From Marinomonas communis (GTDB lineage: Bacteria > Pseudomonadota > Gammaproteobacteria > Pseudomonadales > Marinomonadaceae): a stretch of 64,000 bases of DNA. A model generated the notes under the pieces. The model worked only from the letters and a program-made list of their open reading frames with translations, searched no databases and had not been told where the DNA came from. The stretch spans positions 1,267,228-1,331,227 of the forward strand of contig NZ_SNZA01000001.1 of assembly GCF_004363305.1 (NCBI RefSeq). The letters are read 5' to 3'. Made by a program: the position numbers and the translations under genes. Within the stretch, counting starts at the first letter, position 1. Every line of letters begins with the position of its first letter. Below, piece after piece: positions 22,028-60,359 of this stretch.

Positions 22028-23596
22028 TTACGCGACTGAGAAACCAAGTAGGGCGTAGAAAATAATCGCAGACAGTAGTGCCGATGCTGGAACAGTAATG
22101 ATCCATGCTGCGGCAATGCGAAGTAGAGCCGAACGTTTAACCAACTCTTTCTTGGTCGCTTTCTTAAGGCTCTTACGCTCTTCTTTAGAAATCGGAGCAG
22201 CAGATTGCAGCGCTTTAACTTCACGAAGAATTGCACGCTTTTCCTCTACGTCGGCCATTTTGAAACGTTCTACGAACGCGTGGGTCTCATCTGCACCTAG
22301 GCCAGAACTTTCAGAATGTTTCTCAATCTGAGCAAGTTTCTTCTCGTATGACAGCTTCAAGTACTCACGAAGGAAACCAACACCGAAGATACCGCCTACC
22401 GCAATGTGCGTAGAACTTACTGGCAAACCTAACTGAGATGCAATGATTACAGTGATTGCCGCTGCCATTGCCACACAGAAAGCACGTGTCTTATCAAGTT
22501 CAGTGATTTCAGAGCCCACTGTCTTAATCAGCTTAGGACCAAACAACGCCAAGCCAATCGCGATACCAATACCACCTACTAACATTACCCATAATGGGAT
22601 GGAAGCTTTAGACGATACACCACCGTGAAGCAAAGCATCGTTGATCGCAGCCAACGGCCCGATAGCGTTAGCAACATCGTTTGCACCGTGAGCGAAGCTT
22701 AATAGAGCTGCAGATACAATCAAGGGAATTGTAAACAAGCTATTAACGGCATCTTTTTCATTTTTCAGAGATGCAGCGGCACGATCTACCAATGGGCGAA
22801 CAACGAAGTAAGCAGTCAGGGCAAGACCAAAGCCGATGATCAAAGCGGTAATAATGTCCAGCTTCCAGATCTTCTTAAGACCTTTCATCGCCAAGTAAGT
22901 AGCAAATGCCCACACCATTAACGATACCAATAGTGGAACCACTTTCTTAGCCGCCGAAATCATGTCACTTTGATAAGTGATCGAGCGCTTAATGTAAATC
23001 AAGAAGGTTGCCGCAATGATACCGCCCAACGCAGGAGAAATAACCCAGCTGGCAACAATGGCTCCAACTTGGCTCCAGTTAGCAATGCCCCAGCCACCTG
23101 CGGCAATACCAGCACCCATTACACCACCAACAATCGAGTGTGTCGTTGATACCGGAGCTCCTAGGTAAGTCGCTAAGTTCAGCCAAATTGCGCCCGCTAG
23201 CAATGCTGCCATCATCACCCAAATAAAGGTCGTCGCATCAGCGATCGCATTAGGATTAATGATACCTTTCTTAATCGTGCCAACGACACTGCCACCAGCA
23301 ATGATTGCACCAGCCGCCTCAAAAATCGCAGCGATTAAGATCGCACCTGCCATAGACAGAGCTTTCGAACCTACCGCAGGGCCAACGTTGTTAGCAACGT
23401 CATTGGCACCGATATTCAGAGCCATGTAGGCACCAAACGCAGCGGCAATAGCTAGGATGGACACGTTAGAAACGCCTTCGCCGTGGCTGTAAGCATAAAA
23501 GCCTGCTACCAAAACGAACGCTAACGCGATAAGAATGCGGACAACTTCACTGCCGCGACTGGTCTTTGATTCTGAGCCGTAATTTGCAAGATCCAT
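22028..23596 (-). CDS. PiT family inorganic phosphate transporter
   Basis: A 522-residue inner-membrane carrier. The duplicated PiT signature is present in both halves: GANDVANNVGPAVGSKALS (about 62-80) and GANDVANAIGPLAAI (about 305-319). PVSTTHSIVGGVMGAG and PVSSTHIAVGGIFGVG are the matching second repeats. A soluble loop between about 405 and 480 is lysine- and glutamate-rich, giving a longer protein than E. coli PitA (499). It moves phosphate, usually as a metal-phosphate complex, with H+ or Na+. Four 11-base Pho-box-like repeats lie about 210 bases upstream (23806-23849), so control by PhoB is likely. Confidence 0.93.
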   Translation of the reverse strand: MDLANYGSESKTSRGSEVVRILIALAFVLVAGFYAYSHGEGVSNVSILAIAAAFGAYMALNIGANDVANNVGPAVGSKALSMAGAILIAAIFEAAGAIIAGGSVVGTIKKGIINPNAIADATTFIWVMMAALLAGAIWLNLATYLGAPVSTTHSIVGGVMGAGIAAGGWGIANWSQVGAIVASWVISPALGGIIAATFLIYIKRSITYQSDMISAAKKVVPLLVSLMVWAFATYLAMKGLKKIWKLDIITALIIGFGLALTAYFVVRPLVDRAAASLKNEKDAVNSLFTIPLIVSAALLSFAHGANDVANAIGPLAAINDALLHGGVSSKASIPLWVMLVGGIGIAIGLALFGPKLIKTVGSEITELDKTRAFCVAMAAAITVIIASQLGLPVSSTHIAVGGIFGVGFLREYLKLSYEKKLAQIEKHSESSGLGADETHAFVERFKMADVEEKRAILREVKALQSAAPISKEERKSLKKATKKELVKRSALLRIAAAWIITVPASALLSAIIFYALLGFSVA

Positions 23597-23805: not shown

Positions 23806-23849
23806 TTTTGGTGACATTTATATGTCTTTTATATGACAGAAATATTACA
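23806..23849 (-). promoter_or_regulatory. Pho-box-like tandem 11-base repeats upstream of the PiT gene
   Basis: Read on the minus strand, four contiguous 11-base units are TGTAATATTTC, TGTCATATAAA, AGACATATAAA and TGTCACCAAAA. The known Pho box is tandem 11-base units starting TGTCA. The 358-base gap 23597-23954 otherwise holds the ald terminator and no reading frame I can support. Confidence 0.6.
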
Positions 23850-23885
23850 GGCAGTGTCATGTTACGAAATTAAATGTAAACAGCA

Positions 23886-32035: not shown

Positions 32036-33109
32036 TTAAGAAGCTTCCATAAAAGGTTTCGGCTTATCAAACGTTACACCGTTTGCAGGTGTCACGGATT
32101 GCCATAGAGATTGGCTCAATTCCTCGATTGGCGTCGTTGCGCCATTCGCTACCCATTCCGCAATACCCTTTGCCACATTTGGAAATGTTACACGAACCAC
32201 TTTGGCGTCATCCAGCCAACTGCTAATTACTTGAGATGACAATTGATAGGTCGCTTTGGCAAAGCCTAAATGCTCAAGAGCCACCACATTAGAGAGCTGC
32301 TCTACCTGACCGTGCAAAGGTTTCACCATGATTCGGCGCCCCATGTGCAGCGCTTCAGAATTCAATTCAAAACCCGCATTACAGAGCACAGATTGGCACT
32401 CATGCAAATTCTTTTGAAACCCCTCTCGACTAAAAGGGAATACTTCAACATTACCGTATTTTCCAGGCTCGATATCTTTACAGTGCATTCGAAAAGTATA
32501 ATTAGGCACTCCTTCGAGCCACTCCATCACATCTTCAGAATTCTCAAACGGCAAATACACCAACACTTGATCATCCATAGCACCAGATTGGCTGTCTGCG
32601 TGCTGAATAATTGGCGGTAAGATTGGCTGATCGAAATGGTGCCAGTGTACCCCCAGTCCACGAGAAACAGGCGCAAACCAACTCATAATCCAAGTGCCAA
32701 TTGCATCACCAGTGTACTTAGGTATGTCGTAGTGAAAAGCGTACTGATGCCCCACTCCAATGCATGGCTTTCCTTGTCGCTTTGCGGCCCATGCTGTAAT
32801 TGGCTCAAAATCCGTTAACACTAAATCATACGAAGACAAATCAAGCGTATATATGTCTTTCAGTAAACGTATTAATTGCGCATTACGATACGTAGCAAGA
32901 AAACTGACTTTGCCATTTTTCGCGACAAACGATAGTCCAGGAAAGGTTCGATAATTTCCAAAGCATGCCATATCGAAGTAATCTTTTTGATCTCGCCCAG
33001 AGAAGATAAAGTCAACCTCAATCCCCAAGCGAGCAAGCTCCTCACTCATTGCTCTGGCCCTCGTAATATGGCCATTTCCCGTTCCCTGAACACCGTAAAG
33101 AACCTTCAT
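32036..33109 (-). CDS. MJ1255/VC2487-family glycosyltransferase
   Basis: A 357-residue GT-B-like protein. The N terminus MKVLYGVQGTGNGHITRARAMSEELARLG is the hallmark of this family, with the glycine loop GTGNGH (9-14). The C-terminal nucleotide-sugar half has NLHECQSVLCNAGFELNSEALHMGRRIMVKPLHGQVEQ (about 234-271), as in MurG/UGT-like enzymes. The acceptor is unknown. Its ATG overlaps the stop of the PAP2 gene by four bases (ATGA), so the two are translationally coupled. A lipid-linked or membrane glycolipid substrate is a reasonable inference from the partner. Confidence 0.87.
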   Translation of the reverse strand: MKVLYGVQGTGNGHITRARAMSEELARLGIEVDFIFSGRDQKDYFDMACFGNYRTFPGLSFVAKNGKVSFLATYRNAQLIRLLKDIYTLDLSSYDLVLTDFEPITAWAAKRQGKPCIGVGHQYAFHYDIPKYTGDAIGTWIMSWFAPVSRGLGVHWHHFDQPILPPIIQHADSQSGAMDDQVLVYLPFENSEDVMEWLEGVPNYTFRMHCKDIEPGKYGNVEVFPFSREGFQKNLHECQSVLCNAGFELNSEALHMGRRIMVKPLHGQVEQLSNVVALEHLGFAKATYQLSSQVISSWLDDAKVVRVTFPNVAKGIAEWVANGATTPIEELSQSLWQSVTPANGVTFDKPKPFMEAS

Positions 33110-33621
33110 GCGAATACCTCAAACGCTAACATGGCACAAGACGTTCCCAGTAACGCCCCCATCGCCGTGTCAGTTGGAAAATGCACCCCTAAAAAGATAC
33201 GAGACATGCCAACCATCACCGACCAACTATAAAAACTAACGTAAAACTCAGGGAACCACTCACTTAGACAGTAGGCCATGAAAAAGGCCCCCGATGTATG
33301 ACCTGAAGGAAAAGAGAATTGATCGGATGGACGAATGAAGCTGGTAAAATCATCCAGTATGTCTGCTGGGCGGTTGCGCTTGAAGCTACGTTTCAAAACA
33401 AGATACAGGAGCCGTTCCAAAGCAAAGCCTACCGCTATGATAAGCGTCCAAGTCGGATAACCAAGGGCCCAAAATGACAACCCTAACAACACGTATAAGG
33501 GACCATCGGCTGAAATCGAAACGATTCGGCTTACCCTAGTGAGTAGCTGACGTCGTTTGCGGGCCATCAACCAGTAAAAAGTCGTTACGTCCATGTTATG
33601 AATGCTATTCAGTATGTTCAT
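33106..33621 (-). CDS. PAP2 superfamily membrane phosphatase
   Basis: A 171-residue integral membrane protein with about five segments. All three PAP2 motifs are present: K77-x6-RP (KRSFKRNRP), PSGH at 105-108, and SR-x5-H-x3-D (S140, R141, H147, D151), so it should be active. It could dephosphorylate undecaprenyl pyrophosphate, phosphatidic acid or another lipid phosphate. It is followed with a four-base overlap by a glycosyltransferase, which suggests a joint role in glycolipid or carrier-lipid metabolism. Confidence 0.88.
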   Translation of the reverse strand: MNILNSIHNMDVTTFYWLMARKRRQLLTRVSRIVSISADGPLYVLLGLSFWALGYPTWTLIIAVGFALERLLYLVLKRSFKRNRPADILDDFTSFIRPSDQFSFPSGHTSGAFFMAYCLSEWFPEFYVSFYSWSVMVGMSRIFLGVHFPTDTAMGALLGTSCAMLAFEVFA

Positions 33622-33712
33622 ACCTTTTCCACCTATACATGTCTTCTATAGTTTCAAATTAGACCGTTTAGGTGTCACTTTCATGGCAGGGTCATGATGC
33701 TTTTATGACAAC

Positions 33713-49964: not shown

Positions 49965-51176
49965 TTACGCAATGCTTTTCACATGACTGTATAAACGGTA
50001 GCCTGCAATGAGTCCTACCATAGCGAACCCAATCCAAATCAACTCTCTCGGCAAAGAAGACCAAGACAGCAACATCCCTATCAGTACATTACCTATAAAT
50101 GCGGCCAAACCACCGACACACGAATACATCCCGTAATAGCTACCCAGCTCAGATGTAGAGCAAAATTTTGGTACGTAGGAACCTAGTAATGGGAGAACTA
50201 GCATTGAGCCAACACTGAATACAGCAGCGTACAGAATAAAGTTCGCACCTGGGAGGATTGTTGTATTTGGTAAAAACAGTAAATAAGAGCTCCCCATTAG
50301 GACAAGTCCCAAGCCCATCGCTTTAGCACTTCCTATGGTCCGGCTAACCAAACGACTAATAGGTAATTGAAAACATATTCCTAAAATAGATGAGGTCATA
50401 AACACCCAAGTAATCACACTTGAGTCCAATTCTCGCGTTTCAACCTCGTTTGGCAGGGCTAAATACAATTGATGGAAAAATAAGTGGAACGCACAGGCAC
50501 AAGCGATGAACTTTATAAATGCTGTGTTTTGAAGCATGTCTAACCAGTGCTGCCAAAACGCACCTTCGCTGCGGTTGCGCTTTTCTTGATCGGCCAATTC
50601 AGGTAAAAAGCGCCACTGGATTAAGAACAGGCTGAAAAATAAAAGTGCGGCTCCAAAACCCACCCACATAAAGTCTATGGCCACTAACATAATCCCCAAT
50701 AGAGGCCCGAGAAACATACCTGATTCACTAGTCCAATTTTGCATGGCAAAAATACGATCGCGACGTATTTGATCAGGTGCTTCATGTGCCAAATACGCAT
50801 TACTAGAGGGGGTAAATAACGCACCAGCAAAGCCAGTTAAAAACGCTCCAAGTAACAGTAATGGGAAGTTCGCAGCGAAGCCTAGCAACCCAAAACCCGC
50901 GACCCGAACAAGGCAACCAAGCAAAATAAGCTTTTTATAACCTAAGTAATCGCCTAGGGTTCCCCCCACCAGAAATAAACCTTGCTGACTGAGTACTCGT
51001 AAGCCAATCACAATCCCCACGTGCCATGGGCTCAGGCCGAGATTCCGTTGCAGATGATCTGCCAGATATGGCAGTAACATGTAAAAGCCGAGATTGAAGG
51101 TGAAGCCATTGATAACAAGGACACGACTGGCCGCAGATAATGCGCGCCAGTCTGCTAAAAAGTGATTAGCGTTCAT
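49965..51176 (-). CDS. MFS transporter linked to the metal ABC locus
   Basis: A 403-residue, twelve-segment MFS carrier. Motif A is GGTLGDYLGYKKLILLG (about 71-87), FTGFAGALFTPSSNAYLAHEAPD follows the fifth segment, and the second-half equivalent is weaker. The layout suggests an exporter of the MdtH type. The start is eight bases after the cupredoxin stop on the same strand, so it is probably the last gene of the FecCD permease, ATPase, cupredoxin operon. A chelator or metallophore exporter is a reasonable inference, unproven. Confidence 0.85.
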   Translation of the reverse strand: MNANHFLADWRALSAASRVLVINGFTFNLGFYMLLPYLADHLQRNLGLSPWHVGIVIGLRVLSQQGLFLVGGTLGDYLGYKKLILLGCLVRVAGFGLLGFAANFPLLLLGAFLTGFAGALFTPSSNAYLAHEAPDQIRRDRIFAMQNWTSESGMFLGPLLGIMLVAIDFMWVGFGAALLFFSLFLIQWRFLPELADQEKRNRSEGAFWQHWLDMLQNTAFIKFIACACAFHLFFHQLYLALPNEVETRELDSSVITWVFMTSSILGICFQLPISRLVSRTIGSAKAMGLGLVLMGSSYLLFLPNTTILPGANFILYAAVFSVGSMLVLPLLGSYVPKFCSTSELGSYYGMYSCVGGLAAFIGNVLIGMLLSWSSLPRELIWIGFAMVGLIAGYRLYSHVKSIA

Positions 51177-51184
51177 GCTGTGGG

Positions 51185-51649
51185 TTATTTAACCTGCTCT
51201 AGGATAGCGTCAACACGCTCAGGGTTGAGAGCGATCTTATTGCGAAATGAAGGGTAAAATTGATCAAGAGACTCTTTATTTACCGACTCTCCTACTTGAA
51301 TCACACCGACCATCCCCATCATCAAGTGTGGTGGGCAATAGTATAAATTCACACCTTCTTCAGTGAGCTCTACGGTATAAGTCTCATTTAGCTTTGATGA
51401 CCATGCCTTTTGCTGATCTGGCGTCAAAGCAGAAGCCACATGATGACCTGGTTGAGTGGGAAGGAAAGTAACCGTATCACCAACTTGTGCTTGGATGAAA
51501 TCCGGCTCAAACACCATTGGCCCTTTTTCACCATAGCTTAACATCTGCACTTGCCAGTCTTTAGCAAAGGCAGATGAACAAGCTATTGAGGTCATAGCCG
51601 CAAAAAGTAGCGATCTAGTTAGCATAAGATGATTCCGGTTTTGATTCAT
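51185..51649 (-). CDS. Pseudoazurin-like periplasmic cupredoxin
   Basis: A protein of up to 154 residues with a signal peptide (hydrophobic core about 12-28). The type-1 copper ligands line up with pseudoazurin: H69 in QPGHHVAS, C105 and H108 in YYCPPHL, and M113, with the same C-x2-H-x4-M spacing. A helical tail of about 40 residues follows the fold. AAGGAG precedes the first ATG (51649), inside the end of the ATPase gene; an ATG at 51625 with GGAA is also possible. Its place between the ABC ATPase and an MFS gene is unusual and suggests redox handling of a metal during uptake. Confidence 0.87.
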   Translation of the reverse strand: MNQNRNHLMLTRSLLFAAMTSIACSSAFAKDWQVQMLSYGEKGPMVFEPDFIQAQVGDTVTFLPTQPGHHVASALTPDQQKAWSSKLNETYTVELTEEGVNLYYCPPHLMMGMVGVIQVGESVNKESLDQFYPSFRNKIALNPERVDAILEQVK

Positions 51650-53506: not shown

Positions 53507-53607
53507 GAGTCTTTAGTCTATTAAGAGATCCGTTTGCCGTAGGTAATCATATACCTCTTGGGAGAACACAAACCATCTCATGCTATGTTGCTGCACATAT
53601 AATCAAA

Positions 53608-53622
53608 TGATAATGATTTGCA
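53608..53622. promoter_or_regulatory. Fur box between the divergent metal-import genes
   Basis: TGATAATGATTTGCA matches the 7-1-7 Fur consensus TGATAATNATTATCA at 12 of 14 defined positions. It is about 100 bases from both divergent starts and could repress both. Confidence 0.72.
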
Positions 53623-53721: not shown

Positions 53722-54807
53722 ATGCTGCCGAAAATCACGGCTTTTTCTACTTTACTGCTTACGTCTTCAATCTGTTTGGCACAAGATGTCACCGTGACAG
53801 ACATTCTAGACCGCCAAGTCACATTTGATGCGCCAGCTAAACGTGTTGTAGTCGGCTTTTACCCAGAAGACTACATGGCGATTGGTACTGAAGCAGCTTA
53901 TGACCATGTGGTTGGTATGTCTAAATACATTTGGCAAGCACGCCCAGCGAACTGGGAAATGTACCTAGAACACCGCCCTTCTCTAGATGAGATCCCAGGA
54001 ATCGGCCGAGTAGATACAAAAACGTTTTCTGTGGAAAAAGTCATCAGCTTAAACCCTGATTTAATCATGCTAGCGGATTGGCAATACAAGGGCCTAGGAA
54101 GCGACATCGAACGACTAGAAAATGCTGGTATTCCGGTCATCGTAGTGGACTACAATGCACAAACCCTTGAACGCCATGTAAAAAGCACTGAAATTATTGG
54201 CGTCATTACAGGTCAAGAAGAGCGTGCTAAAAAAATTGCGGATGAATACACGCAAAACCTTAGCATGATTCAAACGCGTATTGAGCAAGCGAATCTTCCT
54301 AAACCGACGGTTTACACCGAGTACGGTGCAGCGGGCGTTAATGAGATTGGCTACACATTTGGTAAAAATATGTGGGGCGCTATTTCCACTATGGCTGGCG
54401 GCGACAACATTTCAGCACCTTACGTTGAATGGTGGGGAAAACTAAACCCTGAGCAAATCCTTGCTGCCAACCCCGACGTAATCGTTATGACAGGATATGA
54501 AACTGGCTCTGGTGATGATGCAATGGTTATGGGTCAAGGCGTTGATGCGGATCTAACCAAGTCTCGACTAGCAGGTTTCAAAGATCGTACTGGTTGGTCT
54601 AGCTTATCAGCGGTAGAAAATGATCGTATGTATGGGGCCTACCACGGTGCAGTGCGATCTATCTTAGACGGTCCGATGATCCAGTTTTATGCTCAAGTGC
54701 TTTACCCTGATCTGTTTACAGATCTTAACCCTGAGCAAGCTTACTTAGACTTCTATAAAAAATACCTACCAGTTATGCCTACAGGCACCTTCGTGACAGG
54801 CCTTTAA
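53722..54807 (+). CDS. Periplasmic iron-complex binding protein
   Basis: A 361-residue class III binding protein (FecB/BtuF fold). The signal peptide is 1-20 (ending CLA). DRQVTFDAPAKRVVVGFYPEDYMAIG starts the first lobe, SLNPDLIMLADWQYKG is typical of the hinge area, and ANPDVIVMTGYE the second lobe. Several tyrosines and tryptophans (WEMYLEH, YVEWWGK) could contact a ligand. It feeds the divergent FecCD permease and its ATPase. The ligand, a siderophore, haem-like or other chelate, cannot be named. A hairpin terminator ends the gene. Confidence 0.9.
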   Translation: MLPKITAFSTLLLTSSICLAQDVTVTDILDRQVTFDAPAKRVVVGFYPEDYMAIGTEAAYDHVVGMSKYIWQARPANWEMYLEHRPSLDEIPGIGRVDTKTFSVEKVISLNPDLIMLADWQYKGLGSDIERLENAGIPVIVVDYNAQTLERHVKSTEIIGVITGQEERAKKIADEYTQNLSMIQTRIEQANLPKPTVYTEYGAAGVNEIGYTFGKNMWGAISTMAGGDNISAPYVEWWGKLNPEQILAANPDVIVMTGYETGSGDDAMVMGQGVDADLTKSRLAGFKDRTGWSSLSAVENDRMYGAYHGAVRSILDGPMIQFYAQVLYPDLFTDLNPEQAYLDFYKKYLPVMPTGTFVTGL

Positions 54808-54811
54808 ATAC

Positions 54812-54851
54812 TTTGCCTTGGCTGAGCGCTCCCTTGCTCAGTCAAGGCAAA
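54812..54851 (+). terminator. Hairpin after the binding-protein gene
   Basis: A 16-pair stem with one G-T, TTTGCCTTGGCTGAGC against GCTCAGTCAAGGCAAA, loop of eight. The T run after it is weak. Confidence 0.6.
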
Positions 54852-54873: not shown

Positions 54874-54908
54874 ACGTCATAAAAATGACATTAAACTCAC
54901 ACGTAACT
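54874..54908 (+). promoter_or_regulatory. Pho-box-like 11-base repeats upstream of the phytase-like gene
   Basis: Three consecutive 11-base units, GTCATAAAAAT, GACATTAAACT and CACACGTAACT, run from 54876 to 54908. The first two give a good match to the Pho box (TGTCA-N6 twice). They lie 56-88 bases before the start at 54964. Confidence 0.55.
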
Positions 54909-54963
54909 GAAAAAGAACCTCGTTAAGTTATTTGAAATTTTTATAACTTTCCTTGGAGTCTTT

Positions 54964-57138
54964 ATGTTACGTCACGGTTTTAAACGTACTCTGTTAGCGT
55001 CATGCTTACTGTCAGCAGCTTTCTCGGTACAAGCAGATTCTTTCCAGCGTATAGCAAGTTTTCCAGTAGCCAAAAATCTTGGACCTCATACTTTGGAAAC
55101 TGAAACGTCTGCTGAAATCATCACTGCAACCGCTGACGGTAATACGTTAATCTACTCCGACAGCCCTCTTGGCGGCATTGGATTTGTCGATATCAAAAAT
55201 GCGAAACACCCTAAAGCCAAAGGCTTCCTAGACTTAAATGGCGAACCGACTTCGGTTGCTACCGTTGGTAAATGGGTCGTAGCGGGGGTTAACACTTCTG
55301 AAAGCTACACAAAACCAAGCGGCTACCTTGCGATTGCAGACGTTGCATCGCAAAAAGTGATACAGCACTGTGAGTTAGGCGGTCAACCGGACTCTGTAGC
55401 GGTTTCAAAAGATGGTCGCTATATTGCGGTCGCAATTGAGAATGAGCGTGATGAGGACCTTAATGACGGTGCCATCCCTCAGCTCCCAGCTGGCTACGTG
55501 GTCATTATCGAATTCGACCAAGCCTCCGGTACATGTCAGAAAACACATAACATTCCTCTAACGGGTCTTGCCGACATTGCGCCAACAGATCCTGAACCTG
55601 AATTTGTCGCGTTTAATGACCACAATGAAGTGGTCATTACCCTGCAAGAAAATAACCATATTGTTATTGTTGATGCGAAAACAGCGAAAGTGACCAATCA
55701 CTTCAGTGCTGGTGAAGTTGATCTGTCAAATATTGATATTAACAAGGATGGAGCACTGACATTCGCAAGCTCTCTAAAGGCGGTAAAACGTGAGCCCGAT
55801 GCCGTTAAATGGTTAGACAACGATCGTTTCGTGATTGCAAACGAAGGGGACTATCAAGGTGGCGCCCGAGGTTTTACGATTTTTAATAAACAAGGTGAAG
55901 TGCTGTTTGAAAGCGGAGCAAGCTTTGAACATGAAGTTGTTCGTGTTGGCCATTACCCAGGAAAACGTTCTGGTAAGAAAGGCTCAGAGCCAGAAGGCTT
56001 AGAAGTCGGTCGATTCAACGGCCAAACTTATATCTTTGTGATGTCTGAACGGGGTTCTGTTGTGGGTGTTTACAAAGACACTGGAGCAGTTCCAGAGTTA
56101 GTACAAATGTTGCCATCCGGCATTGCACCAGAATCGGCAATCGCCATCCCATCTCGTAACCTGATCGCCACGGCGAACGAGAAAGATCTGATCGAAGATA
56201 AAGGTCCACGTTCACACGTGATGCTATATCAGCTGGACGACAAAGCACCAAGTTACCCGCAGATCCAATCTAACCTTGATAAATCTGGCGCACCGATTGG
56301 TTGGGGAGCCTTATCAGGTCTTGCAGCGGATCCCAAACAAGCAGGTAAGCTGTACGCTGTCAGCGATAGTTTCTACAGTAGTCAGCCTGCGATTTTTACC
56401 ATTGATGCCACACAAGCTCCGGCACAAATCACCAATAAGCTTGTGGTCACACGTGATGGCAAACCAGCTGAAAAGCTTGACCTTGAAGGCATTGTTGCCG
56501 ATCCCAAAGGAGGCTTCTGGTTAGCCTCTGAAGGTAATGAGAAAAAAGAAGTTCCTCATGCTATCTATCATGTAGCAGAGTCTGGAGAAATTGATCAAAC
56601 CATTCCATTCCCAGCGGAGCTGCTTGAGAACCAAGAACGCTTTGGTGCCGAAGGTATTACTCTTGTTGACGATCTGCTATGGATTGCGGTCCAAAGACCT
56701 TGGAAAGATGACCCTAAAACAGCAAGCAAACTTCTCAAGTATGATCTAAACAGTCAGCAATGGTCTGCCGCGCATTATCCACTAGAGGAAGCGAAGCAAG
56801 GCTGGATGGGACTGTCAGAAATCACCGCGCATAATGGTCACTTTTACATTCTTGAGCGTGACAACCAACTGGCTGAAAGCGCGAAAGTGAAACGTCTATA
56901 TAAAGTAGAAATTTCGAGTATCAAAACAGCGAAACTGGGGCAAGAACTGCCTACTGTGAGCAAAGAGCTAATATACGATTTCTTGCCAGAGCTTAAAGCA
57001 CAAAATGGTGTCGTAGTGGATAAGATCGAAGGCTTTACGATAGATGCCAACAATATCGGTTACGCAGTAACAGACAACGATGGTGTTGACGACAGTACAG
57101 GTGAAACGTTCTTTTTCAAGGTAGATAAATTTAAGTAA
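54964..57138 (+). CDS. Secreted esterase-like (phytase-type) propeller protein
   Basis: A 724-residue exported protein with a signal peptide (1-24, ending VQA). The first half (about 30-430) reads as a WD/NHL-like beta-propeller (GGQPDSVAVSKDGRYIAVAIENERDED, DAVKWLDNDRFVIANEGDYQGG, ESAIAIPSRNLIATANEKD). The second (about 440-724) matches the esterase-like-activity-of-phytase fold, with KLDLEGIVADPKGGFWLASEGN, RFGAEGITL and DKIEGFTIDANNIGYAVTDNDG. Acidic loops suggest calcium binding. It probably cleaves a phosphate ester or other organic ester in the periplasm; the substrate is unknown. A Pho-box-like promoter fits a phosphate-scavenging role. Confidence 0.85.
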   Translation: MLRHGFKRTLLASCLLSAAFSVQADSFQRIASFPVAKNLGPHTLETETSAEIITATADGNTLIYSDSPLGGIGFVDIKNAKHPKAKGFLDLNGEPTSVATVGKWVVAGVNTSESYTKPSGYLAIADVASQKVIQHCELGGQPDSVAVSKDGRYIAVAIENERDEDLNDGAIPQLPAGYVVIIEFDQASGTCQKTHNIPLTGLADIAPTDPEPEFVAFNDHNEVVITLQENNHIVIVDAKTAKVTNHFSAGEVDLSNIDINKDGALTFASSLKAVKREPDAVKWLDNDRFVIANEGDYQGGARGFTIFNKQGEVLFESGASFEHEVVRVGHYPGKRSGKKGSEPEGLEVGRFNGQTYIFVMSERGSVVGVYKDTGAVPELVQMLPSGIAPESAIAIPSRNLIATANEKDLIEDKGPRSHVMLYQLDDKAPSYPQIQSNLDKSGAPIGWGALSGLAADPKQAGKLYAVSDSFYSSQPAIFTIDATQAPAQITNKLVVTRDGKPAEKLDLEGIVADPKGGFWLASEGNEKKEVPHAIYHVAESGEIDQTIPFPAELLENQERFGAEGITLVDDLLWIAVQRPWKDDPKTASKLLKYDLNSQQWSAAHYPLEEAKQGWMGLSEITAHNGHFYILERDNQLAESAKVKRLYKVEISSIKTAKLGQELPTVSKELIYDFLPELKAQNGVVVDKIEGFTIDANNIGYAVTDNDGVDDSTGETFFFKVDKFK

Positions 57139-58311: not shown

Positions 58312-60174
58312 TTAGAGTTTAAACCGTGAAACAACACCCTCTAATTGATGTGCCAACTCCGAAATGTCGTGACTTGAGCGTGAATTCAGTCTAACAGCCT
58401 CAGAAGTATCCATGGAAATCTCATTAATAATGACCACATTACGATTGATTTCATTCGCTGCAACCGATTGCTGGCCAATAGCCGTCGCCACAGATTGTGC
58501 CATTTCAGAAATTTCATTCACTTCATAAGTAATTCGCTCTAATACATCACCGATGACAGAAGCTTCATCACGGCTACGTTGACCTTCCTCACCACAAGAT
58601 TGCATGATGGTGACAATACTTTGAGTACGTTGCTGCAACGAGTTAATGATGTCAGAAATTTCGACTGTAGCATCATGAGTACGGCTCGCCAAAGCACGAA
58701 CTTCATCAGCAACGACAGCAAAACCGCGCCCTTGCTCTCCAGCCCTAGCAGCTTCTATTGCTGCATTTAATGCAAGTAGGTTGGTTTGCTCCGCTATATC
58801 TTGAATGACATTTAGCACAGTGCCAATACTTTCACTTTCTTTAGCAAGTTCTTGTGCAGAAAGAACGGAAGACTGTAATTGTCCTGATAAATTATTAACA
58901 AGACTTACAGCTGAAGTGACTCTGGCCTGACCATCAGAAACACTTTGCTGAGCATTTTGCGATTTGTCGGCTGCCACTTCCATGTTACGTGAAATATCTT
59001 CAATAGTGCCGACCATCTGCGCTACTGAAGCTGCAACCATATCTGTTTCATCACGTTGACGCTCCGCATCTTTTGCCGTGCGTTCAGCGGTTTGAGAGAG
59101 TTGCTGGGTTTGTTGCTTCATGTTCAACACTGTCTCATTTACAGAGCCAACGACTTTTTGAAAGCCCTCTAGCATCTGATTAATGCTTCGAGCAACATCA
59201 CCAATTTCATCTTTACCCTGATAGGTCACTCTAAGACTTAAGTCTCTCGACCGATCAATTTCAAGCATGGCCTCACGAATAACGGCCAAAGGACGGTTAA
59301 TCGAAGCCCCCACCCGCCAAGCGACCAAACTTGCGATCACTGCGATGACGACAAATAAACTAGTAATCAACCACTCGACTCTGGTTAATAAGGACTCCGT
59401 TTGCTGTGACATACTTGAAACCATCGCCTCAAGCTTGGTTTCAGTTTGATGAATCGTACGACGCATTTCGCCTAAGATACCTTCTTCACTAGAAAGCCCT
59501 ATTCGCTGTTGCTGTGCCACGTAGTCTGAAAACTTACTGCGATATACCTCAGCAAGATTCGTCAAAGACTGCTTTTCACGATTGCTGATCTGAGCACTCT
59601 GAAGCTGACTTGTCAGTGTCGATATTGTTGTATCAAAGCGTTCAATATATTTGGCATCCAGTCGCAACATAAAGTCTTTTTCATGCCGTCTTAGTTGCAA
59701 CATAGTCACCATGATAGCAGGCTGATCTAATGTCTTAAGCGCAGTTTCTATATCATGCACCGCCGAACGAAGTTGCCCTTCAAGCCCTTGGTCGTGACTC
59801 AAGCCCATTGCCTTCTTCGCATCGACCAGCTCTACAAATTTATTCCGGTAATCGCCAAATAATGTCGTTAAATTGCTGAACGCTTTAACATCAACACCAC
59901 TCTCAATAAACATAGCATCAAGAGCGGATTGTTGTTCGATGATTCGTTGCGCTACGTCTTCAAAGCGCGATACATACTTTTCATCGCCACGCGCCAAAAA
60001 GTCTTTTTCATGACGCCTTAAGAGCAGCATTTCAGACTCTTGACGTTGAGCCATTTCTTTTCCTTGAATCAACTCTTTCAAACGAATTTCTGCAAATAGG
60101 AAGGCAACAATTAAGATAACGAGAGATACCACGACAACGCTGGTATTTAGGATAAGCTTCTGCTTGATCTGCAC
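58312..60174 (-). CDS. Methyl-accepting chemotaxis protein with HBM-like helical ligand domain
   Basis: A 620-residue chemoreceptor starting with GTG. Membrane segments at about 8-28 and 264-284 enclose an all-helical sensor of about 235 residues that is internally duplicated. LRRHEKDF occurs at 52-59 and 161-168, and [13 protein letters not shown] near 124 is echoed by [13 protein letters not shown]. This fits the two-bundle HBM domain (McpS type), which binds organic acids such as malate and succinate in Pseudomonas. HAMP and a signalling domain with [20 protein letters not shown] follow. The ligand here is inferred only. Confidence 0.92.
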
Positions 60175-60359
60175 AGGATTACCTACTGATTGAAAAGTGT
60201 CTATCCATGAGTGATATGTGAGACAGCTTCCTTAACTAATTCAGTGTAGCAGACGTAAATAAGAGCACACTGGTTGAATCGGTAGACTTTATTAAGTTTA
60301 TGTGACTGTTTTGTTACAGAAAAAAGCAATTCATTAGAGTAATTTATAAGTTTATTTAT

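Follow-up and report, generated by a model that had tools for sequence, protein, structure and literature searches.

Does the run of 11-nt repeats that precedes the gene for a 724-aa two-propeller protein in Marinomonas communis act as a PhoB operator, and what would such a protein do for the cell? Phosphate shortage is frequent for marine bacteria. Some of the genes that free phosphate from organic matter are only now being recognised, Psip1 being a recent case (PMC11098088), and searches of an open-access library showed no description of this two-propeller protein. The gene (54964-57138, plus strand) was analyzed in a window of 64,000 nt of genomic DNA. PhoB is encoded in the genome (G000:C2:466267-466935, 346.3 bits against a cut-off of 296.2), and so are PstS and PhoX.

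Three contiguous 11-nt units, GTCATAAAAAT (54876-54886), GACATTAAACT (54887-54897) and CACACGTAACT (54898-54908), were found upstream of the ATG of the 724-aa ORF at 54964. A sequence-only reading had described them as consecutive 11-base units located 56-88 bases before the gene, and a check of the sequence bore out both the contiguity over 54876-54908 and the distance. The TGTCA core ascribed to the units had to be given up as an exact match, as they carry CGTCA and TGACA. The conventional PHO-box register begins 2 bases earlier, at 54874, and in this register the predicted PhoB operator (54874-54917, plus strand) consists of four tandem units, ACGTCATAAAA (54874-54884), ATGACATTAAA (54885-54895), CTCACACGTAA (54896-54906) and CTGAAAAAGAA (54907-54917). 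The repeats proposed earlier are the first three of these, and the fourth completes the array. The unit cores are diverged (CGTCA, TGACA, CACAC and TGAAA), and the array belongs to a relaxed kind, with GTCA followed by GACA at 11 nt. A PHO box is defined in PMC4415409 as two 11-nt direct repeats. The target has two or more 11-nt direct repeats of the CTGTCAT type in tandem, and 6 nt lie between its last unit and a -10 hexamer, here the -10-like TAAGTT at 54924-54929 on the plus strand, which lies at GTCA+48, that is, 15+33 (k = 3 in the series 15+11k). No sigma-70-like promoter was called at the target by a pattern scan, as is expected for an activator-dependent promoter. Further downstream, GGAG (54955-54958, plus strand) was read from the sequence as a likely ribosome-binding site and is unchanged in all six Marinomonas sequences that were aligned.

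The strength of the single site was estimated with a 22-bp matrix made from seven E. coli K-12 promoters (phoA, phoB, phoE, phoH, ugpB, pstS and phnC), in which the sites were picked by means of the PHO-box consensus. Two registers of the target scored 11.0 (54885) and 10.7 (54874) and ranked 9 and 10 in the window (127,958 positions, both strands). Among the 50 gene upstream regions of the window, counted for ATG-start ORFs of at least 120 aa, the target was third, and the p-value against 200 shuffles of its upstream sequence was 0.015. Taken alone, the site is suggestive; it is moderate, not exceptional and not decisive. The Pho genes of the same genome scored 5.9 (pstS), 6.0 (phoB) and 13.9 (phoX) with this matrix. 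In this scoring, and in that of the choice-of-anchor I genes described below, the first ATG of the ORF was taken as the gene start, which for some genes (several pstS loci, and L194 among the choice-of-anchor I loci) is probably too far upstream. Since the organism's own pstS, phoB and phoX score in the range of the target, the E. coli matrix is not sharp for Marinomonas. A score no better than that of random AT-rich sequence, named beforehand as the outcome that would speak against a PHO box, was looked for with the E. coli matrix and was not obtained; the score of the target lies among those of true Pho genes.

Orthologues were collected from the best 80 of 127 relatives and from nine Marinomonas genomes. 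Of 110 loci, 89 match the protein at E 1e-30 or better, and removal of L031 and L032, which are the same genes as L002 and L004, left 87 orthologues; the partial matches to the N-terminal half (L010-L030) were not counted. According to the classes given in the sequence records, 36 orthologues are gammaproteobacterial (Marinomonas, Marinobacterium, Neptuniibacter, Amphritea, Enterovibrio, Veronia and others) and 51 are alphaproteobacterial (Ruegeria, Pelagimonas, Cognatishimia and others). Neighbouring genes on the same contigs, taken from loci L033-L110, served as controls, 527 for the matrix test and 517 for the spacing and -10 tests, which differ in the upstream length required. The median upstream matrix score was 9.2 for the orthologues and 2.3 for the 527 controls, and 48 of the 87 orthologues exceeded the 95th percentile of the controls (8.99) with the E. 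coli matrix. The Mann-Whitney p-value for this difference was 4e-32; the orthologue sequences are related and not independent, so p-values of this sort are not to be taken literally.

The spacing of the repeats was then counted in a manner that does not depend on the matrix. Pairs of GTCA at exactly 11 nt were present in 14/87 orthologues versus 5/517 controls, and pairs at exactly 22 nt in 29/87 versus 1/517, with 1, 0, 0 and 0 of the 87 at 10, 12, 21 and 23 nt. Combined, the strict 11/22 pairs occurred in 38/87 orthologues and 6/517 controls. When one unit was relaxed, the counts rose to 67/87 and 20/517, compared with 3/87 at the neighbouring spacings of 10/21 and 5/87 at 12/23. A spacing of 24 nt was also raised (8/87 orthologues), and the relaxed 13/24 spacing was found in 19/87 orthologues versus 16/517 controls, a lesser excess for which we have no explanation. 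Of the 28 genus-level groups, 15 had one or more members with strict pairs and 26 had one or more with relaxed pairs. The relaxed test was failed by 20 of the 87 orthologues, among them 4 of the 10 from Marinomonas. The 11-nt period is thus sharp and recurs in two classes, and it is this conservation, far beyond that of the controls, which decides for the PhoB-operator reading, the site alone being insufficient.

The distance to the -10 hexamer is conserved as well. TANNNT at GTCA+15+11k was present in 32/87 orthologues versus 11/517 controls, and at the other offsets from 9 to 19 in 0-7 of the 87. All 32 carriers are gammaproteobacterial (32 of 36); the geometry was found in none of the 51 alphaproteobacterial orthologues. 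Three orthologues (L002, L005 and L006) failed the repeat test and passed the -10 test, and L009, from Marinomonas, failed both the relaxed repeat test and the -10 test. One test or the other was passed by 74/87 orthologues versus 25/517 controls. Six controls passed both, of which four (L039, L040, L041 and L061) are positioned at a PhoX-cluster gene and the remaining two are L047 and L060. The same layout is known from genuine Pho promoters. In Marinomonas pstS, TANNNT stands at +15, with the same 6-nt gap, in 27 of 30 cases, and E. coli phoA shows a box, 6 nt and TATAGT, as at the target. TANNNT was absent 6 nt downstream of the other six of the seven best E. coli sites, and for Marinomonas phoB it was found at that position in 0/30, a looser T[AT]NNN[TA] being present in 29/30. 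These exceptions leave the assessment unchanged, as do the 13/24 spacing and the alphaproteobacterial orthologues with their lack of the -10 geometry: the excess at 11/22 is far larger, and the target belongs to the group in which the -10 geometry holds. The target therefore resembles the PhoB-dependent promoters of E. coli phoA and Marinomonas pstS in its tandem 11-nt repeats and the 6 nt to TANNNT; unlike in those promoters, its units are diverged and four in number. The repeats upstream of the 724-aa gene are very probably a PhoB operator, and the predicted control of this gene by PhoB is strongly supported.

Two other accounts of the upstream region had to be weighed. The repeats could have arisen by chance in AT-rich sequence, or could be the palindromic operator of another regulator, as GTCATaaaaATGAC is also an inverted repeat. 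The modest p-value of the site alone is compatible with such an origin, and inverted GTCA..TGAC spacings of 10, 15 and 37 do occur in 5, 7 and 8 of the 87 orthologues, besides the somewhat raised direct spacing of 13/24 (19/87). However, no single inverted spacing exceeds 8/87, whereas the direct 11/22 spacing dominates (67/87 against 3/87 and 5/87 at the neighbouring spacings). As the conserved property is this direct spacing, both chance and a palindromic operator were rejected, and we regard either as extremely improbable. In the other account, transcription reaches the gene mainly by read-through from the gene before it, and control is by Fur, not PhoB. That gene (53722-54807, plus strand) encodes, by profile matches, a periplasmic binding protein of an iron/siderophore-type ABC system, and it ends 156 bp before the target ATG on the same strand. 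A Fur-box-like sequence, AAATGATAATGATTT (53605-53619), lies in the promoter region of the binding-protein gene. Against this, a 17-bp stem-loop (54812-54851, plus strand; -28.5 kcal/mol, z -6.9) separates the iron/siderophore-type system from the operator, and both the operator and the -10 hexamer lie beyond it. The stem-loop is terminator-like and has no T run, and no terminator was called there by a pattern scan. Moreover, the Pho spacing is kept by orthologues in other genera, and the neighbours in the window are absent from the neighbour clusters present in at least four orthologue loci. Because of the stem-loop and of the spacing kept elsewhere, read-through was rejected as very unlikely, and the binding-protein gene was not judged part of a Pho unit.

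Some features of the surroundings can be recorded here. AAATGATAATGATTT stands within the divergent promoter region that the binding-protein gene shares with the iron-type ABC genes, and the ABC genes are followed by a pseudoazurin gene (51185-51649, minus strand) and an MFS gene (49965-51176, minus strand). A PADLOC search gave no match. Around the orthologues, a PhoX-cluster gene shares the locus in L039, L040, L041 and L061 (Neptuniibacter) and in L052; the match to PF05787 (E 1.5e-186) was obtained with the L039 protein. A porin gene (PF13609, as judged from the L033 member) is found within 17 loci.

The 724-aa protein is 88% identical to a protein of Marinomonas ostreistagni and 82% to one of M. 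fungiae. Its N-terminus, MLRHGFKRTLLASCLLSAAFSVQA, resembles a signal peptide when read by eye, and with such a start the protein is most likely exported. A 7-bladed propeller follows, and then a PF13449 propeller. The phytase-type C-terminal half proposed in the sequence-only reading is supported by a PF13449 match over residues 446-706 (E 1.3e-65, 222.5 bits, above the cut-off of 27.6). The N-terminal half is related to the choice-of-anchor I family (NF038117, E 2.1e-33) and lies outside the family proper, with 115.9 bits against the curated cut-off of 300. AlphaFold gave a mean pLDDT of 88.9 and a pTM of 0.88 for the whole protein. With the C-terminal half alone the values were 90.2 and 0.91; the alignments used for the two predictions had 69 and 49 sequences, counting the one from the window. 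Foldseek with the full model returned mostly double-WD40 chains at rmsd 12.6-28 and was uninformative. The C-terminal half was folded alone because the matches from VIA-align with the full model lay mostly within residues 19-426. The best structural matches of the N-terminal propeller were the WD40 proteins Rrp9 and WDR5, together with YncE (Z 34-35). The closest structure to the C-terminal half was YjiK (3qqz; Z 21.8, rmsd 2.7, 219 aligned), followed by glutaminyl cyclases (Z 19-20), with glycosidases, paraoxonase (PON1) and apyrase at Z of about 15. With YjiK and glutaminyl cyclases as its best matches, the fold alone does not point specifically to a phosphatase. PhoX and Bacillus-type beta-propeller phytases were not among the structural matches listed for the C-terminal half, which excludes nothing. 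Searches of PDB sequences gave no convincing relative, and there was no Pfam match to PhoX (PF05787). In the two alignments, of 69 and 49 sequences, many Asp/Glu are invariant in both halves, and the acidic motifs DLEG, SEG, EGI, ERDN, KxEG and TDNDGVDD of the PF13449 half are invariant or nearly so.

These data suggest the following scheme. When phosphate is exhausted, phosphorylated PhoB would bind the four tandem 11-nt half-sites at 54874-54917 and bring RNA polymerase with sigma-70 to the -10 hexamer (54924-54929), for which no -35 is recognisable. The gene would thus be switched on, and the exported two-propeller protein, most likely a metal-dependent phosphoester hydrolase, would help, outside the cytoplasm, to gain phosphate from organic phosphorus. 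Binding and induction by PhoB can be predicted with high confidence. That the 724-aa protein hydrolyzes organic phosphate is reasonably probable, and the scheme as a whole, from the PhoB switch to phosphate obtained by an exported protein, appears to have a good chance of being correct. Phosphate scavenging is the likely, putative role of the protein, given a site score among those of true Pho genes, the conserved repeat and -10 spacing, and the PF13449 match. The term 'phytase-like' attached to PF13449 is a name, and catalysis by the target is putative, as the best inference.

The alternative to an enzyme is that the gene is regulated by PhoB and that, under phosphate stress, the propellers of its product serve for binding, be it of a ligand, a surface or a partner. 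Propeller folds are common to binding proteins, the best structural matches (WD40 proteins and YncE for the N-terminal half, YjiK for the C-terminal half) would suit such a role, and the PDB holds no convincing sequence relative; but the acidic motifs of the PF13449 half are invariant or nearly so, PhoX adjoins the orthologue in Neptuniibacter, and phytase-annotated genes are on record in phosphate stress (PMC9846622, PMC8829014, PMC11208175). A non-enzymatic protein is accordingly considered rather unlikely, and a putative phosphoester hydrolase is preferred.

Several known systems resemble the target in part. In Sinorhizobium meliloti, SMc00620 of 'phytase type' is given in PMC8829014 as the most connected gene of the phosphate-stress network, and the Caulobacter PhoB regulon as described in PMC11208175 includes a phytase. 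Both share with the target the 'phytase' annotation and phosphate-stress regulation, the latter predicted for the target. The target differs from them in that its PF13449 propeller is the C-terminal one of two in a protein of 724 aa. In Nodularia, nsp7010, an 'esterase-like activity of phytase family protein', is tabled in the phosphate-limitation stimulon (PMC9846622), and the atypical alkaline phosphatase PhoAaty has conserved Asp/Glu motifs (PMC4548154); compared by description, these two are like the target in annotation, in phosphate response (predicted for the target) and in conserved Asp/Glu motifs. Sequence comparison with PhoAaty, a Synechococcus enzyme, was indirect, by way of an S. 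elongatus control genome in which choice_anch_I matches and PF13449 does not. PhoX (PF05787) and Psip1 alkaline phosphatases are described as propeller enzymes of phosphate starvation, and Psip1 as a separate family in which some cyanobacterial orthologues have an additional phytase-like domain (PMC11098088). The target and PhoX are both propeller proteins and have no significant profile match to each other (hhalign probability 0.5 and 1.1). With phosphate-regulated phytase-annotated proteins already on record, the target gene is very probably a new, widely conserved gene of the Pho regulon. Its conserved PhoB-type promoter in gamma- and alphaproteobacteria turns a 'phytase-like' annotation into a concrete and testable function in phosphate scavenging, and makes the gene a candidate marker of phosphate stress for metatranscriptomes.

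A full-length match to the 724-aa protein was found in 9 of 48 Marinomonas genomes. PF13449 matches of any kind were present in 37 (34 over the cut-off) and PF05787 matches in 47, five of the latter being weak at about 70 bits. Choice-of-anchor I proteins above the cut-off were encoded in 13 of the 48 genomes, none of them among the nine with the full-length protein. These choice-of-anchor I genes (L193-L205) encode 529-604 aa, many with lipoprotein-like starts. Upstream of the 13 genes the median score with the E. coli matrix was 11.3, seven exceeded 8.99, the 95th percentile of the controls, and in 12 the best site was at -56 to -79. The sites were such as TTGCCATATTATTGTCATAATT, in several cases followed by 6 nt and TACTGT or TAGTGT. 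Only 3 of the 13 passed the relaxed spacing test, because the first unit is usually GCCA, which this test does not count. As a lead only, the link to Pho may belong to the wider choice-of-anchor I/PF13449 family. It is a tentative idea, somewhat doubtful as yet, that choice-of-anchor I-type propellers, either single (529-604 aa) or as the N-terminal half of the 724-aa PF13449 fusion, form one undescribed family of phosphate-starvation enzymes of marine bacteria. In Marinomonas the two forms replace each other: of 48 genomes, 13 have the single form, 9 have the fusion and none has both. The fusion is preceded by predicted PhoB boxes, as are many of the single genes, and the family would perhaps correspond in proteobacteria to the atypical alkaline phosphatase of cyanobacteria and algae. 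Stand-alone PF13449 genes were looked at in three cases; two of these, which are very similar to each other and come from two other Marinomonas genomes, have a PHO-box-like site, TAGTCATAAAGTTGACAAGAGA in L177 and TGGTCATAAATTTGACAAAACA in L178.

Other PHO-box-like sites were noticed in the window. The top matrix score, 20.6, belongs to an array of four units, CTGTAATATTT CTGTCATATAA AAGACATATAA ATGTCACCAAA (23807-23850, minus strand), located upstream of a gene for a PHO4-family phosphate transporter (22028-23596, minus strand). A site with a score of 15.5, CTGTAACAAAACAGTCACATAA (60298-60319, minus strand), precedes the gene for a methyl-accepting chemotaxis protein (58312-60174, minus strand, GTG start), possibly a chemoreceptor of phosphate starvation. 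A further site (33668-33689, minus strand, score 13.9) stands before genes for a PAP2 phosphatase (33106-33621) and a glycosyltransferase (32036-33109), a pair that might take part in lipid remodelling under phosphate stress.
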